Origin: Burkholderiaceae bacterium
GTDB lineage: Bacteria; Pseudomonadota; Gammaproteobacteria; Burkholderiales; Burkholderiaceae_B
DNA: 35,845 nt
Direction of reading: 5' to 3'
NCBI GenBank assembly: GCA_023653055.1
Contig: JAMNXR010000022.1
Coordinates: 1-35,845 of the forward strand
Of the stretch, positions 8,966-18,591 are shown one piece after another (positions within the stretch are counted from its first letter, which is position 1; each line of letters starts with the position of its first letter). Under the pieces are notes generated by a model. That model searched no databases. It was given only the letters and a program-made list of their open reading frames with translations, and was not told the DNA's origin. The position numbers were made by a program, and so were the translations under genes.

Positions 8966-9949
8966 TTAGTCTACGCTTGCACCTGAGCTTTTGACGATTT
9001 TCTGCCAGTTAGCCAAATCGTCTTTGATGAGTGTGGCGAATTGCTGGGGGGTGCTTTCAAGAGGTTCGCAACCTTGCTTCAGCAGACGCTCTTGAACATC
9101 TTTGTCAGCCAAGGCTGTTTTGATGGCAGCGTTAAGCTTGTTGACGATGGCGACAGGTGTGCCTGTCGGGGCCAAAATGCCATACCAGGGCGTTGAGCCG
9201 AAGCCCGGAATCGTCTCGCTGATGGAAGGGACGTTAGGTAGAGCGCCGATACGCTTTTCGTTCGTCACAGCCAAAGCTTTGATCTTCCCAGCCTTGAGCA
9301 GGCCAAGTGAGGAAGGTGCGCTTTGTACCGAGATGGGGACTGTTCCACCTGCGACGTCTGTTGCAGCGGCTGACGCGCTTTTGTAGGGTACGTGTTGTAT
9401 GTTCAGGCCGACCTGCTGTTTGAACATTTCCATGATCAGGTGATTGAGCGTGCCATTTCCTGCGGAGGCATAGTTGTATTTGCCTGGGTTGGCTTTAAGC
9501 TGAGCAATCAGTTCGTTGACATTATTGGCTGGAAAGGCCGCATTGGCGACGAGTACATAACCTGCACTGGCCACGAGGCCCACAGGCGTAAAGTCTTTGA
9601 TAGGGTCAAAACCAGTGGTTTTGTAGAGCCAGGGGTTGATCACCTGAGCACCATTGGTCGTCAGCATCAGTGTGTAGCCATCTGGTTTAGCTTTTGCCGC
9701 GGCGGCGGTGCCGATGTTGCCACCTGCACCCGTACGGTTTTCAACCACAAATTGTTGGCCGAGGATTTCGCTCAGCTTGGCGGCAATGATCCGTGCAATG
9801 GTGTCATTGGCGCCGCCTGTGGCCTGGGGCACGATTACGGATACTGGACGGCTTGGATAGTCAGCTTGTGCCGAGGCGGTGCCGTGCGCCAGTACGACAA
9901 GGGCGGCGCCTGCGACGAGGGCGCGGGTCATGGTCGAAATAATGCGCAT
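8966..9949 (-). CDS. Bug/TctC-family periplasmic substrate-binding protein (second copy)
   Basis: A 327-residue TTT receptor. The ATG at 9949 is preferred over the longer reading frame (to 10048) because CGGAG lies just before it and the protein then begins with a clean signal peptide ending ASAQ. Family marks are VSVIVPQATGGANDTIARII, FVVENRTGAGGNIGTAAAAKAKPDGYTL and YNYASAGNGTLNHLIMEMF. It shares only the family framework with the receptor at 5271-6263 and is probably for another ligand. No membrane subunits or catabolic genes adjoin it: it is convergent with the glycosyltransferase and divergent from the copper locus. Confidence 0.93.
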   Translation of the reverse strand: MRIISTMTRALVAGAALVVLAHGTASAQADYPSRPVSVIVPQATGGANDTIARIIAAKLSEILGQQFVVENRTGAGGNIGTAAAAKAKPDGYTLMLTTNGAQVINPWLYKTTGFDPIKDFTPVGLVASAGYVLVANAAFPANNVNELIAQLKANPGKYNYASAGNGTLNHLIMEMFKQQVGLNIQHVPYKSASAAATDVAGGTVPISVQSAPSSLGLLKAGKIKALAVTNEKRIGALPNVPSISETIPGFGSTPWYGILAPTGTPVAIVNKLNAAIKTALADKDVQERLLKQGCEPLESTPQQFATLIKDDLANWQKIVKSSGASVD

Positions 9950-10068
9950 GTCAATCTCCGGTATTTTTGTAAGAAATGCTTTTATACAGCATGGGGATGA
10001 CTTTGGGCTGCCAGGCAAGCCATTCAAGGGAAAATCATGAGTGTTCAATTGCAGTAAAATTATCCCTT

Positions 10069-10455
10069 ATGTTTACGCTCACTCAACTTAAACGCCTTGC
10101 TTCAGCGCTCCTCGCGGTGATGTTGCTGGCCGTTTCTGCGCCCACGATTTCCAAAGTGATCGTGATGGATACGTCACAGTCTGCATTGATTGAGATTTGT
10201 ACGGCTGAGGGTGTTAAACGTATCAGCTTTTCGGATTCGTCATTGAGCGCGCAACAGCCGACCGGGGAGCATGACGCGCACGCTGAGGAGTGTCCCTATT
10301 GCCATCTTCAATCCACCCAAGCTGTTCCCCCTGCGGCGTTGACGTTTCTAAGCGTCTCTGTCCTTGCGTTTTTTCCTTCGCTTTTTTATCAAGCACCTAA
10401 ATCCCAGTTTGCCTGGGCACCTCAACGCGCTCGCGCGCCGCCCGTCCTCTCCTAA
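10069..10455 (+). CDS. DUF2946 family membrane/periplasmic protein
   Basis: A 128-residue protein opening the copper locus. DUF2946 features are a hydrophobic N-terminal segment (ASALLAVMLLAVSAPTIS), then EICTAEGVKRIS (Cys44) and the CPYC pair (Cys75, Cys78) followed by a second hydrophobic stretch and a short basic tail. The His/Asp-rich GEHDAHAEE before CPYC suggests metal binding. Members are often found beside copper genes in proteobacteria; their role is unproven. The ATG at 10069 is chosen by the family N-terminus. An in-frame ATG at 9976 would add 31 unrelated residues. The ribosome binding site is weak. It is first in an apparent operon with the PCuAC-like, mbnP and mbnH genes. Confidence 0.82.
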   Translation: MFTLTQLKRLASALLAVMLLAVSAPTISKVIVMDTSQSALIEICTAEGVKRISFSDSSLSAQQPTGEHDAHAEECPYCHLQSTQAVPPAALTFLSVSVLAFFPSLFYQAPKSQFAWAPQRARAPPVLS

Positions 10456-10518
10456 ATTCTAAATCTAGAGATCCTCTCGTCTTTGGGCGTGGGGAACTGC
10501 ATTTATGTATTTGGAGAA

Positions 10519-11028
10519 ATGATGAGCCGAATTCAATTCGTGCGTCGTGCATTGTTGTTCTGCATCACGACCTTGCCTTTTGCGATGGGTGTGGTCCATG
10601 GTCACACCTATAAAGCCGCAAGTTTAAAAGTCGATCACCCCTACGCGACGCCCACTCCCGCTGGGGAACAAGTCAGCACCGTGTATTTTCGCGCGTTTGA
10701 TAACGTTGGAAAAACTGCCGATGAACTGATTGGCGCGCGAGTAGATATTGCTGAACGCGTTGAGATCCGGCGCTCAGTTGTGGTGGATGGCGTTGCGGAG
10801 GATCGGGTCGTCAAGGAAGTGAGTCTGCCAAGCGGTAAAGGACCCTCTTTCCGGCACGACGCCAAAAATGGCTATCACTTGTTATTGGTCAATCTTAACG
10901 CTCCCTTGAAAAACGGCGATCGCTTCCCGCTCTGGTTGACGTTTCGTCATGCTGGGGAAATGAAAGTCATGGTCTGGGTGCAGACACCCAGAGGGGCACA
11001 AGCGCCTCAGCACGATCACAAACATTAA
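10519..11028 (+). CDS. PCuAC-like periplasmic protein lacking most copper ligands
   Basis: A 169-residue exported protein with the cupredoxin-like PCuAC fold: signal peptide, ASLKVDHPYATPTPAG...TVYFRAFDN, then AERVEIRR, GYHLLLVNLNAPLKNGDRFPLWLTFRHAG. Normal PCuAC proteins hold Cu(I) with a His in 'VELHxM', Met residues after it and a final HxM. Here the first His is Arg84, no Met follows, and only His120 of the GYHLxL segment remains. A histidine-rich tail (HDHKH) may supply other metal sites. It is thus either a non-copper scaffold or a chaperone with new ligands. Start: GGAG lies before the ATG pair at 10519/10522. It sits between DUF2946 and mbnP, nine bases before mbnP. Confidence 0.87.
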   Translation: MMSRIQFVRRALLFCITTLPFAMGVVHGHTYKAASLKVDHPYATPTPAGEQVSTVYFRAFDNVGKTADELIGARVDIAERVEIRRSVVVDGVAEDRVVKEVSLPSGKGPSFRHDAKNGYHLLLVNLNAPLKNGDRFPLWLTFRHAGEMKVMVWVQTPRGAQAPQHDHKH

Positions 11029-11037
11029 GGAATAAAA

Positions 11038-11925
11038 ATGAAAAACTATTTAGCTTTAGTTGGAACGTCACTCTTGGTCGCATGTTCGACCGTGCCTTCG
11101 CAGCAGACTGCCACTCAGCCCGTTGAGTTACGCTTTATGGCGGAGGTTAACGGTCAGGCGTTTGAATGTGGTCAGTCATATAAAAATATTGGCACGACAC
11201 GCTCAACGATGACACCTACCGATTTCCGGATGTTTGTCAGTCAGGTGCAGTTACTGACGTCAGAGGGAAAAGCGGTGCCGGTTCAGCTGATTCAAGATAA
11301 AGCGTGGCAGTTGGATGCGATTGCCTTATTGGATTTTGAAAATGCGCAGGGTCCTTGCGGTAATGGAACGTCAGCAATGAATACGGTGGTCCGTGGCACA
11401 GTGCCTGCAGGACAATATACCAGTGTCAAATTTAAGGTGGGTGTGCCCTTTGAGCGGAACCATGGGGATCCAACCGTGGCGCCTGCGCCTTTGAGTTCGA
11501 CCGCTATGTTCTGGACCTGGCAAGCTGGGTACAAGTTCATTAAGTTTGATGCAGCCACTTCAGGTCGTCCCGTGCACGCGGTGCAGTCAGCGGCGCATGG
11601 GGGTGCCAATGCGTCTGGTTTTTCAGTGCACTTAGGGAGCACGCTTTGTGCTGCTCCAGCGCGTACACAAGCCCCATCCGCCTGTCAGAATCCCAACCTG
11701 ATTGATGTGACATTGACTGATTTTGATATCAAAAAGAATCAAGTCGTGGTGGATATTGGAAAAGTATTGGCGGGCGCAAATGTCGATATCAATGCACCCA
11801 ACACGTCACCGGGGTGCATGAGCTTTCCAAAGGATTCAGATTGCCCGCCAATCATGAATGCCTTGGGGTTGGCTTATGACGGCAAAGCCCCATCTGGCAC
11901 TCAGCAGTTCATCATCAAGCGGTAA
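11038..11925 (+). CDS. mbnP: MbnP family copper-binding lipoprotein (four-Cys motif, metallo-mystery pair partner)
   Basis: A 295-residue lipoprotein: signal peptide with lipobox LVAC (Cys16). Family marks are VNGQAFECG (Cys44), the FWTWQAGYKFIKFD block with Trp159 and Trp161, SVHLGSTLC (His198, Cys204), a further Cys216 in CQNPN, and a C-terminal GCMSFPKDSDCPPIMNALGL (Cys260, Cys269). In characterised members (MbnP, CorA/MopE) a tryptophan of the FWxWQ region is oxidised to kynurenine by the diheme partner and helps bind copper. Which of the two Trp is modified here cannot be read from sequence. A good ribosome binding site (AAGGAA) precedes the ATG. The mbnH gene starts four bases after the stop, as expected for the pair. 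Family assignment is strong; role in copper uptake is inferred. Confidence 0.92.
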   Translation: MKNYLALVGTSLLVACSTVPSQQTATQPVELRFMAEVNGQAFECGQSYKNIGTTRSTMTPTDFRMFVSQVQLLTSEGKAVPVQLIQDKAWQLDAIALLDFENAQGPCGNGTSAMNTVVRGTVPAGQYTSVKFKVGVPFERNHGDPTVAPAPLSSTAMFWTWQAGYKFIKFDAATSGRPVHAVQSAAHGGANASGFSVHLGSTLCAAPARTQAPSACQNPNLIDVTLTDFDIKKNQVVVDIGKVLAGANVDINAPNTSPGCMSFPKDSDCPPIMNALGLAYDGKAPSGTQQFIIKR

Positions 11926-11929
11926 ATCG

Positions 11930-13075
11930 ATGAAAGTGTGCGCATTGCCACGCGTCATGATGTCCTTGTTGGGCATCATGGCAAGTGCTGTATTTTTTAA
12001 CGCTCTTGCACAGACCTATCAGCGGGAAATTCCACCATGGGTACCCGCGCCCGTTGTCCCTCACGACAATCCTATGTCGGATAAAAAAGTCGAATTAGGG
12101 CGTCATCTTTTTTACGATAAACGCTTATCGGCAGATCAAACGATGTCGTGCGCGACCTGTCATCACCAAGAAAAAGCGTTTACGGATGGTCGTGTGTTTT
12201 CGAGAGGGTTGACCGGTCAACCTGCGATGCGCAATACGATGTCGCTGGCGAATGTCGCGTATTTGCCCGTATTGACATGGTCCAACCCTTCTCTGAGTTC
12301 TTTGGAGGTACAGGCGCTGATCCCATTGTTTGGCGAACACCCGGTTGAAATGGGCATGGCGGGCAAGGAAGAATTGTTATTTGAGCGCCTAAAGAAGGAG
12401 CGGGTCTATCAAGGCCTATTTCGAGAGGCATTTCCAGAGGAGGCACAAAGCGGGGAGGCTGCGTTGTATTCCCTTTCGACAGTGACCAAGGCGCTGGCAA
12501 GTTTTCAACGACGCTTGTTGTCCTTTGATAGTCCGTATGATCGATTTCGCTATGGCGGTGATCAGGCCGCCTTGAGTCCACAGGCCAAACGTGGAGAGGC
12601 TTTGTTTTTTGGTGAAAAAATGGAGTGCTATCACTGCCACGGTGGCTTGAACTTTACCGACAATATTAAACACACACGCCTGCCTTTTCCGGAGCTAGGC
12701 TTTCACAATACAGGCCTCTACAACGTAGATGGAAAAGGCGCATATCCAAAAGGTCAGACGGGGATCGAAGAAATGACCGGTGCAGCCTCGGATATGGGTA
12801 AGTTCCGCACGCCGACTTTGCGAAATATTGCCAAAACAGCGCCCTATATGCATGATGGTTCAGTACCGACGCTTGCGGCAGTGATCCGTAACCACTATGC
12901 ACGTGCGGGTCGGGCAGGTGGACAAGCCTCAGGACCGAATCCAATGCGAAGCGAATTGTTAGTAGGGTTTCAGGTGAGCGAACAAGAGGTGCAAGACCTG
13001 ATCGCGTTTTTACATGCGCTCACGGATGAGGGTTTTTTAAAGGATGAGCGATTAAGCGATCCGTGGCAGCGGTGA
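11930..13075 (+). CDS. mbnH: MbnH family diheme c-type cytochrome peroxidase-like enzyme
   Basis: A 381-residue periplasmic diheme protein of the MauG/CcpA superfamily. The ATG at 11930 gives a signal peptide ending NALAQ; a longer in-frame start at 11858 would overlap mbnP by 68 bases. Heme sites are CATCH (Cys74, Cys77, His78) and CYHCH (Cys233, Cys236, His237). MbnH-type marks are LGRHLFYDKRLS, FGEHPVEMG, KFRTPTLRNIAKTAPYMHDGS (Met308 a likely axial ligand). MbnH uses peroxide to oxidise a tryptophan of its partner MbnP to kynurenine through a high-valent diheme state. Pairing with the adjacent mbnP supports the same reaction here. Its 3' end overlaps the convergent DUF4143 ATPase gene by 24 bases. 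Confidence 0.92.
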   Translation: MKVCALPRVMMSLLGIMASAVFFNALAQTYQREIPPWVPAPVVPHDNPMSDKKVELGRHLFYDKRLSADQTMSCATCHHQEKAFTDGRVFSRGLTGQPAMRNTMSLANVAYLPVLTWSNPSLSSLEVQALIPLFGEHPVEMGMAGKEELLFERLKKERVYQGLFREAFPEEAQSGEAALYSLSTVTKALASFQRRLLSFDSPYDRFRYGGDQAALSPQAKRGEALFFGEKMECYHCHGGLNFTDNIKHTRLPFPELGFHNTGLYNVDGKGAYPKGQTGIEEMTGAASDMGKFRTPTLRNIAKTAPYMHDGSVPTLAAVIRNHYARAGRAGGQASGPNPMRSELLVGFQVSEQEVQDLIAFLHALTDEGFLKDERLSDPWQR

Positions 13076-15984: not shown

Positions 15985-16879
15985 GAATATTACTTTTCGA
16001 CAACTCAAGCTTTTCCTTGCACTTGCAGAGACGGGCAGTGTGAGTGCGGCCGCCCGGGCGATGCATGTCACTCAACCCACAGCCTCGATGCAACTCAAAG
16101 AGGTCACGCAATCTATCGGTATTCCTCTGTTTGAGGTGATTTCTAAAAAGGTGCATCTCACCGACATGGGGCTTGAACTCGCACAAACGGCACGCGCAAT
16201 CGTTCAGACATGGGAGGCCTTTGAACAGGGCGTCGATAATGTGAAGGGGCTCGCACGTGGCAAGCTGAGGGTTGCAGTGGTCAGCACGGCAAAATACTTT
16301 ATCCCCCGTTTAATTGGATCGTTTTGTAAAAAATATCCAGAGATTGATGTGTCGCTTGAAATCCTCAACCGTGATGGTGTGGTGCAACGGATGCGCGATA
16401 ACTTAGATGATCTGTACATCATGTCTCAGCCCCCCATTGATCTGGATTTGAGTGATGAGATTTTTATGGCAAATCCGCTTGTCTTAATCGCTGCGTCGCG
16501 ATCAATATTGGTTAAACAAGGGGGCGTTGAGTTAAAAAGTTTAGGTGACCAGCGCTTCATCCTCAGAGAGCAGGGTTCTGGAACGAGAATGGGTGTTGAC
16601 CAGTACTTTAAAAAAAATAAATTCAGACCGAATATCAGGATGGAGCTCGGCAGTAACGAAGCGATCAAAGAGGCTGTGGCAGGGGGGCTGGGGATTGGAA
16701 TCGTTTCTCGTCATTCCTTACATGGTCAGCAAAAAGAGCACGGTGTCGCAGTGGTTGATCTATTGGGCTTTCCGATTCTCTCTAATTGGCATATCGTGCA
16801 TCCTGCCAGCAAGAAGTTGTCGCCCATTGCGACTGAATTCAAGCTTCACATGCGCAAGGAATTGAAGCGCCACCTATGA
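15983..16879 (+). CDS. CbbR/CmpR-like LysR family transcriptional regulator
   Basis: A 298-residue LysR regulator. Residues 1-60 form the winged helix-turn-helix (FRQLKLFLALAETGSVSAAARAMHVTQPTASMQLKEV). The effector domain begins with KLRVAVVSTAKYFIPRLIGSFCKKYPEIDVSLEILNRDGVVQRMRDNLDDLYIMSQPP, closely following the CbbR/CmpR pattern of carbon-fixation and bicarbonate-uptake regulators. It is divergent from the SbtA-like permease, its likely target, and its stop overlaps the start of the cyanophycinase gene (ATGA, 16876-16879), so it may also control that gene. The start has no obvious ribosome binding site; the dyad at 15969 overlaps it. Confidence 0.93.
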   Translation: MNITFRQLKLFLALAETGSVSAAARAMHVTQPTASMQLKEVTQSIGIPLFEVISKKVHLTDMGLELAQTARAIVQTWEAFEQGVDNVKGLARGKLRVAVVSTAKYFIPRLIGSFCKKYPEIDVSLEILNRDGVVQRMRDNLDDLYIMSQPPIDLDLSDEIFMANPLVLIAASRSILVKQGGVELKSLGDQRFILREQGSGTRMGVDQYFKKNKFRPNIRMELGSNEAIKEAVAGGLGIGIVSRHSLHGQQKEHGVAVVDLLGFPILSNWHIVHPASKKLSPIATEFKLHMRKELKRHL

Positions 16880-17805
16880 GAAATAAAGTGTCCTCTGGAA
16901 AGTATGTGCATACTTTGTTCATATGCATCGTGATCTGTATTGGGGTACTCATTACGCCTCAAGGGTACGCCGAAGTTAGCGTAGAGAAGCATAAGCGTGG
17001 ATCACTCATCATTGTCGGTGGGGGCGATACACCTTATACGATTCAAAAACGATTTGTAGAGTTGGCGGGTGGGGCCGGACGCGCGCGAGTCGCGATTTTT
17101 CCAATGGCTGCAACCGAGTATGACGAAGAGGCTGAAGAAGTCCTCGCTGAGTTGAAATGGTTAGGTGCAGATGCTGTACTGCTGAATATGGATCGAGAGC
17201 AAGCGCAATCCAGAGAAATGGAAAAGGTGTTGACGGGATTTACGGGCTATTGGTTTTTAGGGGGTGACCAAAATGTATTGGCCGCTTCGTTACTCGACAC
17301 GCGCGCCTTGAGAACAATTGAATTTCAATATGAAAAAGGCGCCGTGATCGGCGGAACCTCAGCAGGAGCGGCCGTGATGACTGCCACCATGCTGACGGGG
17401 GAACGTCGGACAGCCAGTGGCCGCATCAACGAGGATCCTAACGCGGTTGCGTTACGCAGTACTGTTGTCACGCCAGGGTTTGGTCTGTTACCTGGTGCGA
17501 TTATCGATCAACACTTTAGTCGACGGTCACGTGACAATCGGTTGGTGAGTGCGATTTTAGATAACCCTCAATTGCTAGGGGTCGGTATTGATGAGGAGAC
17601 CGCCTTGGTTGTTCGCCCAGATGGCAAGTGGGAAGTCTTAGGTAACGGTCATATCAAGATTTATGATGCTAGGCGTGCATATATTGTGAACGAGGATAAT
17701 GATTCGGTAGGTGCCTCGGGTATCAGGTTGCATGTATTGCCACGCGGCTCTCAGTTTGACCCAAAGTTAGGTCGGCTAGGATCGTGGCGTAACCAGTCTT
17801 TGTAA
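16876..17805 (+). CDS. exported cyanophycinase (peptidase S51)
   Basis: A 309-residue serine peptidase family S51 protein. A hydrophobic N-terminal segment (residues 11-32, ending YAE) indicates export. Cyanophycinase marks are SLIIVGGGDTPYTIQKRFVELAGG, the FLGGDQN loop, the nucleophile motif GGTSAGAAVM (Ser162), IIDQHFSRRSRDNR and GVGIDEETALVV. These enzymes cut cyanophycin into beta-Asp-Arg dipeptides. An exported form would use cyanophycin or related isopeptides from outside the cytoplasm. No cyanophycin synthetase is in the window. It is translationally coupled to the LysR gene upstream and lies 30 bases before the YdcF-like gene. Confidence 0.92.
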   Translation: MRNKVSSGKYVHTLFICIVICIGVLITPQGYAEVSVEKHKRGSLIIVGGGDTPYTIQKRFVELAGGAGRARVAIFPMAATEYDEEAEEVLAELKWLGADAVLLNMDREQAQSREMEKVLTGFTGYWFLGGDQNVLAASLLDTRALRTIEFQYEKGAVIGGTSAGAAVMTATMLTGERRTASGRINEDPNAVALRSTVVTPGFGLLPGAIIDQHFSRRSRDNRLVSAILDNPQLLGVGIDEETALVVRPDGKWEVLGNGHIKIYDARRAYIVNEDNDSVGASGIRLHVLPRGSQFDPKLGRLGSWRNQSL

Positions 17806-17835: not shown

Positions 17836-18591
17836 ATGATTTATTTCCATAAAATCCTACCTTTAATTTTGTCGCCGCTCATCGTCACGATGTTATTGGT
17901 GGCATACGGAGTCATAAAAAATAATAAACGCTACAGCGTAGCGGGCTTAGTATTGCTCTATGCCTCAAGTACCTTTGTCATTGCGGATTTTTTGTTTGCA
18001 AAACTGGAAGGGCAGGATTTGAGAATTGAGGCCAAGGATGCACCTCGCGCGGATGCGATTGTCGTGCTCAGCGGGACGATGACGCACGTACAGGGTGCTG
18101 CAGGACCGGTTACTGAATGGAACGATGCCGATCGTTTTTTTGCGGGTCTTGAGCTGTATCAAGCAGGCAAGGCGCCACGTTTGATTTTTACTGGAGGCTT
18201 GTTGCCTTGGGAAAAAACCTCGCAAACTGAGGGTGCAGTGCTGAAAGCACATGCGCAGCGTTTTGGGATTCCGGAGGCAAGTATTGGCGTGTCGGGTGAG
18301 GCACAAAACACTTCACAAGAAGCGGTTGCAGTCAGAGCAATGTTGACGGATTCAAAGATATTGCTCGTCACTTCGGCCTTTCACATGGATCGCGCCAAGC
18401 AACAGTTTGAACGTCAGGGCTTTGAGGTGAGTGCATTTCCAGTGGATTTTAAAGTGCGCGGAAAAGCGTTCACACCCATGGATTTCTTACCCGATCCACG
18501 CGCGCTGGGTTTAACGGATATGGTGGTGCGCGAGTGGATCGGTCGGCTTTATTATCAGCTGAGGGCCTGGATACAAGACAGTAGGAGCTAG
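17836..18591 (+). CDS. YdcF/ElyC family (DUF218) membrane protein
   Basis: A 251-residue inner-membrane protein with two N-terminal transmembrane helices (about residues 8-26 and 34-53) followed by a periplasmic DUF218 domain. Domain marks are ADAIVVLSG, FFAGLELYQAGKAPRLIFTGG, LLVTSAFHMDRAKQQFERQGFEV and a C-terminal VREWIGRLYYQLRAW. E. coli relatives (ElyC, SanA, YdcF) are linked to envelope maintenance; the chemistry is unknown. It follows the cyanophycinase by 30 bases and may share its transcript. Its stop overlaps the stop of the convergent repeat-protein gene by four bases. Confidence 0.9.
   Translation: MIYFHKILPLILSPLIVTMLLVAYGVIKNNKRYSVAGLVLLYASSTFVIADFLFAKLEGQDLRIEAKDAPRADAIVVLSGTMTHVQGAAGPVTEWNDADRFFAGLELYQAGKAPRLIFTGGLLPWEKTSQTEGAVLKAHAQRFGIPEASIGVSGEAQNTSQEAVAVRAMLTDSKILLVTSAFHMDRAKQQFERQGFEVSAFPVDFKVRGKAFTPMDFLPDPRALGLTDMVVREWIGRLYYQLRAWIQDSRS

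Follow-up and report, generated by a model that had tools for sequence, protein, structure and literature searches.

A probable copper-starvation operon joining a CruR-like leader, a brace-bearing PCuAC protein, MbnP and MbnH in a Burkholderiaceae bacterium

A contig of 35,845 nucleotides from a Burkholderiaceae bacterium of freshwater type (contig JAMNXR010000022.1, assembly GCA_023653055.1), hereafter the window, carries four adjacent forward-strand genes encoding a CruR-like DUF2946 protein, a PCuAC-fold protein, MbnP, and MbnH. The locus is probably a copper-starvation operon that captures copper in the periplasm and hands it on. Its PCuAC protein keeps a predicted N-terminal Cu(II) histidine brace and lacks the Cu(I) site of canonical PCuAC chaperones. 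The features of the locus, all on the + strand, are as follows.

10069–10455, +: DUF2946/CruR-like, putatively copper-responsive upstream open reading frame (ORF) of 128 residues (PF11162, 46.8 bits; CPYC at residue 75, RAPP at residue 122)
10291–10302, +: CPYC, the CXXC motif of the CruR-like ORF, putatively copper-sensing (role shown for CruR of Bordetella pertussis, PMC9426467)
10353–10452, +: C-rich, G-poor stretch, candidate Rho-loading region (39 C and 18 G per 100 nt)
10432–10443, +: RAPP motif of the CruR-like ORF, expected to arrest the ribosome (arrest by RAPP in PMC9426467 and PMC12992588)
10456–10518, +: 63-nt intergenic region, presumed site of copper-dependent Rho termination (by extension from PMC9426467)
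10522–11028 (alternative start 10519), +: PCuAC-fold protein with an N-terminal HX10H brace and without the HXnMX21HXM site (profile match, motifs, alignments)
10603–10638, +: H28-X10-H39 pair, predicted to form a Cu(II) histidine brace at the start of the mature protein (aligned with both PmoF1 His)
11038–11925, +: MbnP, copper protein and predicted lipoprotein with an LVAC lipobox read by eye (TIGR04052, 288 bits; 7l6g, E 2.8e-37)
11512–11520, +: WxW motif, W159 and W161 (motif and alignment), the first Trp being the expected kynurenine by what is said of the family
11930–13075, +: MbnH, diheme MauG-like enzyme, expected Trp-to-kynurenine oxidase (TIGR04039, 461 bits; 6e1c, E 1.1e-101)
12149–12163, +: heme c motif 1 (CATCH) of MbnH, a sequence motif
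12626–12640, +: heme c motif 2 (CYHCH) of MbnH, a sequence motif

The tightly spaced, one-strand arrangement proposed by an earlier sequence-only reading was borne out, the genes being separated by gaps of 63, 9, and 4 nt, and the nearest gene-like ORFs on either flank lie on the − strand, the upstream one divergent and the downstream one convergent. Promoter and terminator scans gave no clear excess over shuffled sequences (5 against a mean of 3.3; 3 against 4.4) and were set aside, and a search with NCBIfam profiles assigned no family to the DUF2946 or the PCuAC protein.

The MbnP protein passed the curated equivalog cut-off of TIGR04052 (288 bits against 140), and MbnH that of TIGR04039 (461 bits against 362.85). 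The nearest solved structures are 7l6g and the diheme enzyme 6e1c, which we take to be MbnP and MbnH of Methylosinus trichosporium OB3b. MbnP carries FWTWQ, and its six Cys, H142, W159, W161, H198, and M261 are invariant in all 19 aligned MbnPs, the window's included, while MbnH has two CXXCH motifs at residues 74 and 233; the pair is intact, as had been claimed. Both window proteins match the OB3b proteins over nearly their full length; MbnP has the WxW, His, Met, and Cys positions in common with its counterpart, and MbnH the two heme motifs, whereas the partner genes in the window are cruR and a PCuAC gene and the window MbnP has a lipobox. The first Trp of WxW is reportedly converted to kynurenine, and the resulting MbnP site is said to hold Cu(I). 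By analogy, MbnH likely oxidizes an MbnP Trp to kynurenine; this likely chemistry and the copper role suggested earlier are both supported. That MbnP and MbnH serve here in some other oxidative or redox role, such as peroxide handling, and not in copper supply is very improbable. MbnH is indeed a member of the diheme peroxidase superfamily, but it scores 182.8 bits against the MauG model, far under that model's own cut-off of 443.85, while clearing that of TIGR04039, and its CruR-like leader and PCuAC neighbors point to copper. A better score in the MauG/CcpA family, which would have spoken against the pair, was looked for and not obtained, and with 6e1c as the best structure match a MauG- or CcpA-type identity of MbnH was rejected. 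A methanobactin cluster in the window's genome was likewise rejected, the mbnB-family profile PF05114 having no match there, with matches in two of 14 control genomes. In another Burkholderiales genome, a DUF692/MbnB-like ORF (recognized by eye from its start; L028:4059-4874, − strand) lies behind mbnH in the order cruR, large ORF, mbnP, mbnH, possibly a methanobactin-type cluster (L and G numbers are our labels for loci and genomes).

The PCuAC protein belongs to its family by profile (PF04314, E 1e-20, 73.8 bits against a cut-off of 29.4), in line with its earlier description as PCuAC-like. It lacks the standard Cu(I) site: the pattern HXnMX21/22HXM is absent, the four ligand positions read R-D-H-L, and three of the four ligands are gone. 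The protein has instead a brace of the PmoF1/PmoF2 type, H28-X10-H39, directly behind a hydrophobic leader ending in VHG (cleavage site placed by eye), and both of these His align with the two Cu(II) brace His of PmoF1. The fold, the HX10H brace at the mature N terminus, and the absence of HXnMX21HXM are shared with the PCuAC domains of methanotroph PmoF1 and PmoF2 (PDB 6p16, 6p1g). These differ from the window protein in their setting, no methanotroph context having been found for the window, although the AMO/pMMO profile PF02461, without a match in the window's genome, also matched no control genome. With canonical PCuAC chaperones (AccA, PDB 9yah; Thermus thermophilus, 2k6w) the window protein shares fold and sequence family and differs in the ligand positions. 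Its Cu(I) site was probably lost separately from that of PmoF1, because in sequence the protein scores 48 bits with canonical PCuACs and 25 bits with PmoF1, which puts it nearer to the former. The window's genome encodes elsewhere a canonical PCuAC and two COX1 genes.

The brace recurs beside mbnP and mbnH. Among 146 unique PCuACs (those identical in the last 120 residues counted as one; the window not counted), it was present in 55 of the 60 encoded within 200 bp of mbnP or mbnH, in 11 of the 33 lying further off in the same loci, and in nine of the 53 without mbnPH on their own strand (9/13 window-like and other picks, 0/40 low-ranked), and the Cu(I) site was incomplete in 17 (16 with the brace plus the cut L064), two, and none of these groups, both contrasts being inflated by similarity ranking and relatedness. 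The last group comprises 11 PCuACs from the top of the list, L066 of the window's own genome, L152, whose locus does contain mbnPH, though on the opposite strand, and 40 taken from further down the list, read as stretches of about 0.8 kb that do not reach the neighboring genes, from genomes without an MbnP match or with it on another contig. Pattern search confirmed the HX10H spacing in 53 of the 55 adjacent brace proteins, and L190 shows it on reading; in 49 of the 53 read by pattern, the brace is preceded by A, G, or S. Five adjacent PCuACs have no brace: L064 is cut, L143 and L150 are canonical second copies with a brace copy in the same locus, and L170 and L180 are considered below.

These counts also bear on the idea that the window PCuAC is a decayed chaperone, kept as a scaffold or for protein contact, with an inherited HX10H no longer in use. 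The primary-site positions do vary freely (RDHL, QEHL, KWQL, QWRY, and others), but both brace His are kept in 17 of the 18 incomplete-site PCuACs with a readable N terminus, and the brace sits right behind a small residue, so that such decay seems unlikely. In the Rhodobacterales-type loci L159, L161, and L162 (about 9970-10865), a longer PCuAC-like protein follows mbnH next to a dual-site PCuAC; it has HX10H and an extra C-terminal part and is without the Cu(I) site.

A joined tree of PCuAC, MbnP, and MbnH from 28 chosen loci and the window (29 in all), with the ligand columns left out, paired the window and its genus relative G427 with G064, a member of another family that keeps both sites (support 100/100), and set the remaining genus members and the second genus of the family apart as a separate group. 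A single clade of the 11 brace-only rows was rejected on this tree (p-AU, approximately unbiased test, 0.0002), and the MbnP tree also unites the window, G427, and G064 (96). As the window and G427 pair with G064, the trees suggest that the operon moved between families. L138 beside the intact L140, and L143 beside the intact L124, appear to be further losses, although L138 retains the first His; with these included, and with regain of ligands discounted, parsimony gives at least four losses of the Cu(I) site in Burkholderiales. The PCuAC tree leaves out L064 and L137, which are cut by contig ends, and the MbnP tree leaves out L116, L160, and L188 as well as any MbnP ORF shorter than 230 residues, with ORFs longer than 420 residues trimmed to their last 400.

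The DUF2946 gene had been counted as a further member of the capture or delivery system, a role that its sequence does not favor. The protein is the sole PF11162 match in the genome (E 6e-12, 46.8 bits against a cut-off of 23.7), and most likely represents a CruR-type regulatory ORF and not a capture or delivery protein, because it combines a CXXC with a C-terminal RAPP. In B. pertussis, the DUF2946 ORF CruR governs the genes behind it (Roy 2022, PMC9426467); in the model given there, RAPP arrests the ribosome at low copper and Rho is kept off, and copper sensed by CXXC relieves the arrest. Arrest by the CruR RAPP in vitro is described in PMC12992588, where RGPP, a variant present in some relatives' cruR-like ORFs, supports arrest too. 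In the window, 43 residues separate CPYC from RAPP and three follow RAPP, compared with a spacing of 45 and a RAPP three residues from the end in B. pertussis (PMC9426467). Among 115 motif-bearing ORFs (locus repeats included), the spacing is 44–45 in 88 and 43 in four. Of the 1045 ORFs that lie on the mbnP strand no more than 3 kb upstream of that gene, 89 are of this kind, compared with 26 of 8397 elsewhere, the latter figure including relatives further off. The window ORF is the first gene, with a divergent ORF upstream, and this order is kept in all eight uncut loci of the genus, the window included. The C-over-G value of its stretch at 10353–10452 is reached by 0.02% of the + strand positions of the window (1.7% on the − strand), and the best values of the 115 cruR-like ORFs (repeats included) lie above those of random stretches from the same loci (median 0.20 against 0.10). 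In L049, a second DUF2946-like ORF with CXXC and without RAPP lies right behind mbnH (9824-10102).

The window operon resembles the B. pertussis operon cruR-crtA(bfrG)-bp2921 in that a DUF2946 leader with CXXC and RAPP heads copper genes (bfrG and bp2921 are later named crtA and crpH in PMC12914433 and PMC13038864). The two differ downstream, where B. pertussis has a TonB-dependent transporter and a PepSY_TM protein and the window has PCuAC, MbnP, and MbnH. A single delivery pathway made of all four products, with DUF2946 as an exported binder and PCuAC as a usual Cu(I) chaperone, would find some support in the start of the DUF2946 protein, which resembles a signal peptide, and in a CXXC with a nearby His (by eye). 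However, an arrest peptide is what a RAPP close to the C terminus, with constant spacing from CXXC, would fit, and the PCuAC has lost three of its four Cu(I) ligands; we consider this pathway improbable, and DUF2946 as a copper carrier was rejected on the RAPP–CXXC arrangement.

MbnP was found in nine of 32 genomes of the window's genus, and the order cruR-PCuAC-mbnP-mbnH is complete in the eight uncut loci (window included), the ninth contig ending inside the PCuAC gene. The same order occurs in all four MbnP-bearing genomes of the second genus of the family (250 genomes sampled). With a limit of 3 kb for both partners, on the upstream side for cruR, and the window excluded, the own family had cruR in 12 and PCuAC in 13 of 13 loci, the one miss being a cut contig, and the order sample had them in 8/16 and 5/16. 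The best 80 named loci, taken from 243 confirmed stretches in order of similarity to the window MbnP and with the own genome possibly excluded, had cruR in 56 and PCuAC in 59. The link of cruR and PCuAC to mbnPH is strong among near relatives and weak among distant ones; the proposed co-occurrence of the pair with DUF2946 and PCuAC genes thus holds in genus and family and fades with distance. The flanks of the window are common to G427 only, among 12 operon-bearing loci, several of which end at contig ends. In Limnohabitans parvus (L127:5316-15174), mbnPH is surrounded by three cruR-like ORFs, a canonical PCuAC, and a dual-site PCuAC, and further large ORFs follow, so that this copper region is much fuller than that of the window.

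At low copper, the CruR-like leader would, by analogy with its published homolog, stall the ribosome at RAPP and shield the RNA from Rho, and the three downstream genes would be made; copper on CPYC would relieve the stall, and Rho would end transcription. The exported PCuAC, cut so that His28 becomes its first residue, may hold Cu(II) in the His28/His39 brace, as motif and fold suggest. If family knowledge applies here, MbnH, via its two hemes, would complete a Cu(I) site in MbnP by oxidizing Trp159 to kynurenine. PCuAC would then take Cu(II) and MbnP Cu(I), and copper may be passed to clients such as heme-copper oxidases, whose assembly would continue with the canonical PCuAC encoded elsewhere and the two COX1 genes. 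Beyond this probable role, we tentatively propose that brace PCuACs outside methanotrophs form a dedicated class of MbnP/MbnH partners, that in at least four Burkholderiales lineages the Cu(I) site was shed because the kynurenine site of MbnP took over Cu(I), and that the resulting Cu(II)-to-Cu(I) relay is switched on by a copper-sensing arrest peptide; this broader proposal has appreciably less than an even chance of being right.

Several results weigh against these readings. L170 and L180 are adjacent PCuACs and real exceptions without the brace, dual-site PCuACs with the brace are also found without mbnPH nearby, and in L185, where one Cu(I) ligand is altered, a single brace His remains. 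Independent-pairs tests of adjacency against brace and site loss on the PCuAC tree had only five starred pairs, too few for a verdict, and site loss leaned neither way. On PCuAC alone, holding the 11 brace-only rows together fits 23.6 log units better than the free tree (p-AU 0.84), so that a single loss is not rejected by that gene. In the phylum sample, which covers 15 of the 18 new matching genomes (G709, G721, and G747, all below the family cut-off, left out), cruR and PCuAC were each found in one of 15 MbnPH loci, and either partner in only one. The 63-nt gap behind the CruR-like ORF falls short of the 162 nt found in B. pertussis, and long gaps behind cruR are stressed in PMC9426467. The operon contains no TonB-dependent transporter to account for the passage of copper across the outer membrane.

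The grouping of cruR, PCuAC, and MbnPH is not new, because the cruR operons listed by Roy 2022 (PMC9426467) already include PcuAC and MbnPH-like genes. In the open literature searched, partly in excerpt, neither the association of brace PCuACs with MbnPH nor the repeated loss of the Cu(I) site was found reported; part of this may be contained in Fisher 2019, Kenney 2019, and Manesis 2021, which lie outside that search. The same search found no paper joining MauG with PCuAC and none on a metallo-mystery pair.

Elsewhere in the window, a cyanophycinase gene with a leader-like start (16876-17805; TIGR02069, 169.9 bits against a cut-off of 126.6) lies beside a DUF218 gene (17836-18591).

For the role of MbnPH outside methanotrophs, a partner that recurs often, carries a Cu(II) brace, and has lost its Cu(I) site more than once offers a concrete and testable idea, namely that the kynurenine site replaces the Cu(I) site of the chaperone, and the locus would place kynurenine-copper chemistry under a copper-sensing translation-arrest leader. 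Proteins annotated as "PCu(A)C" beside mbnPH call for caution, as their function may be other than that of a Cu(I) chaperone serving CuA.

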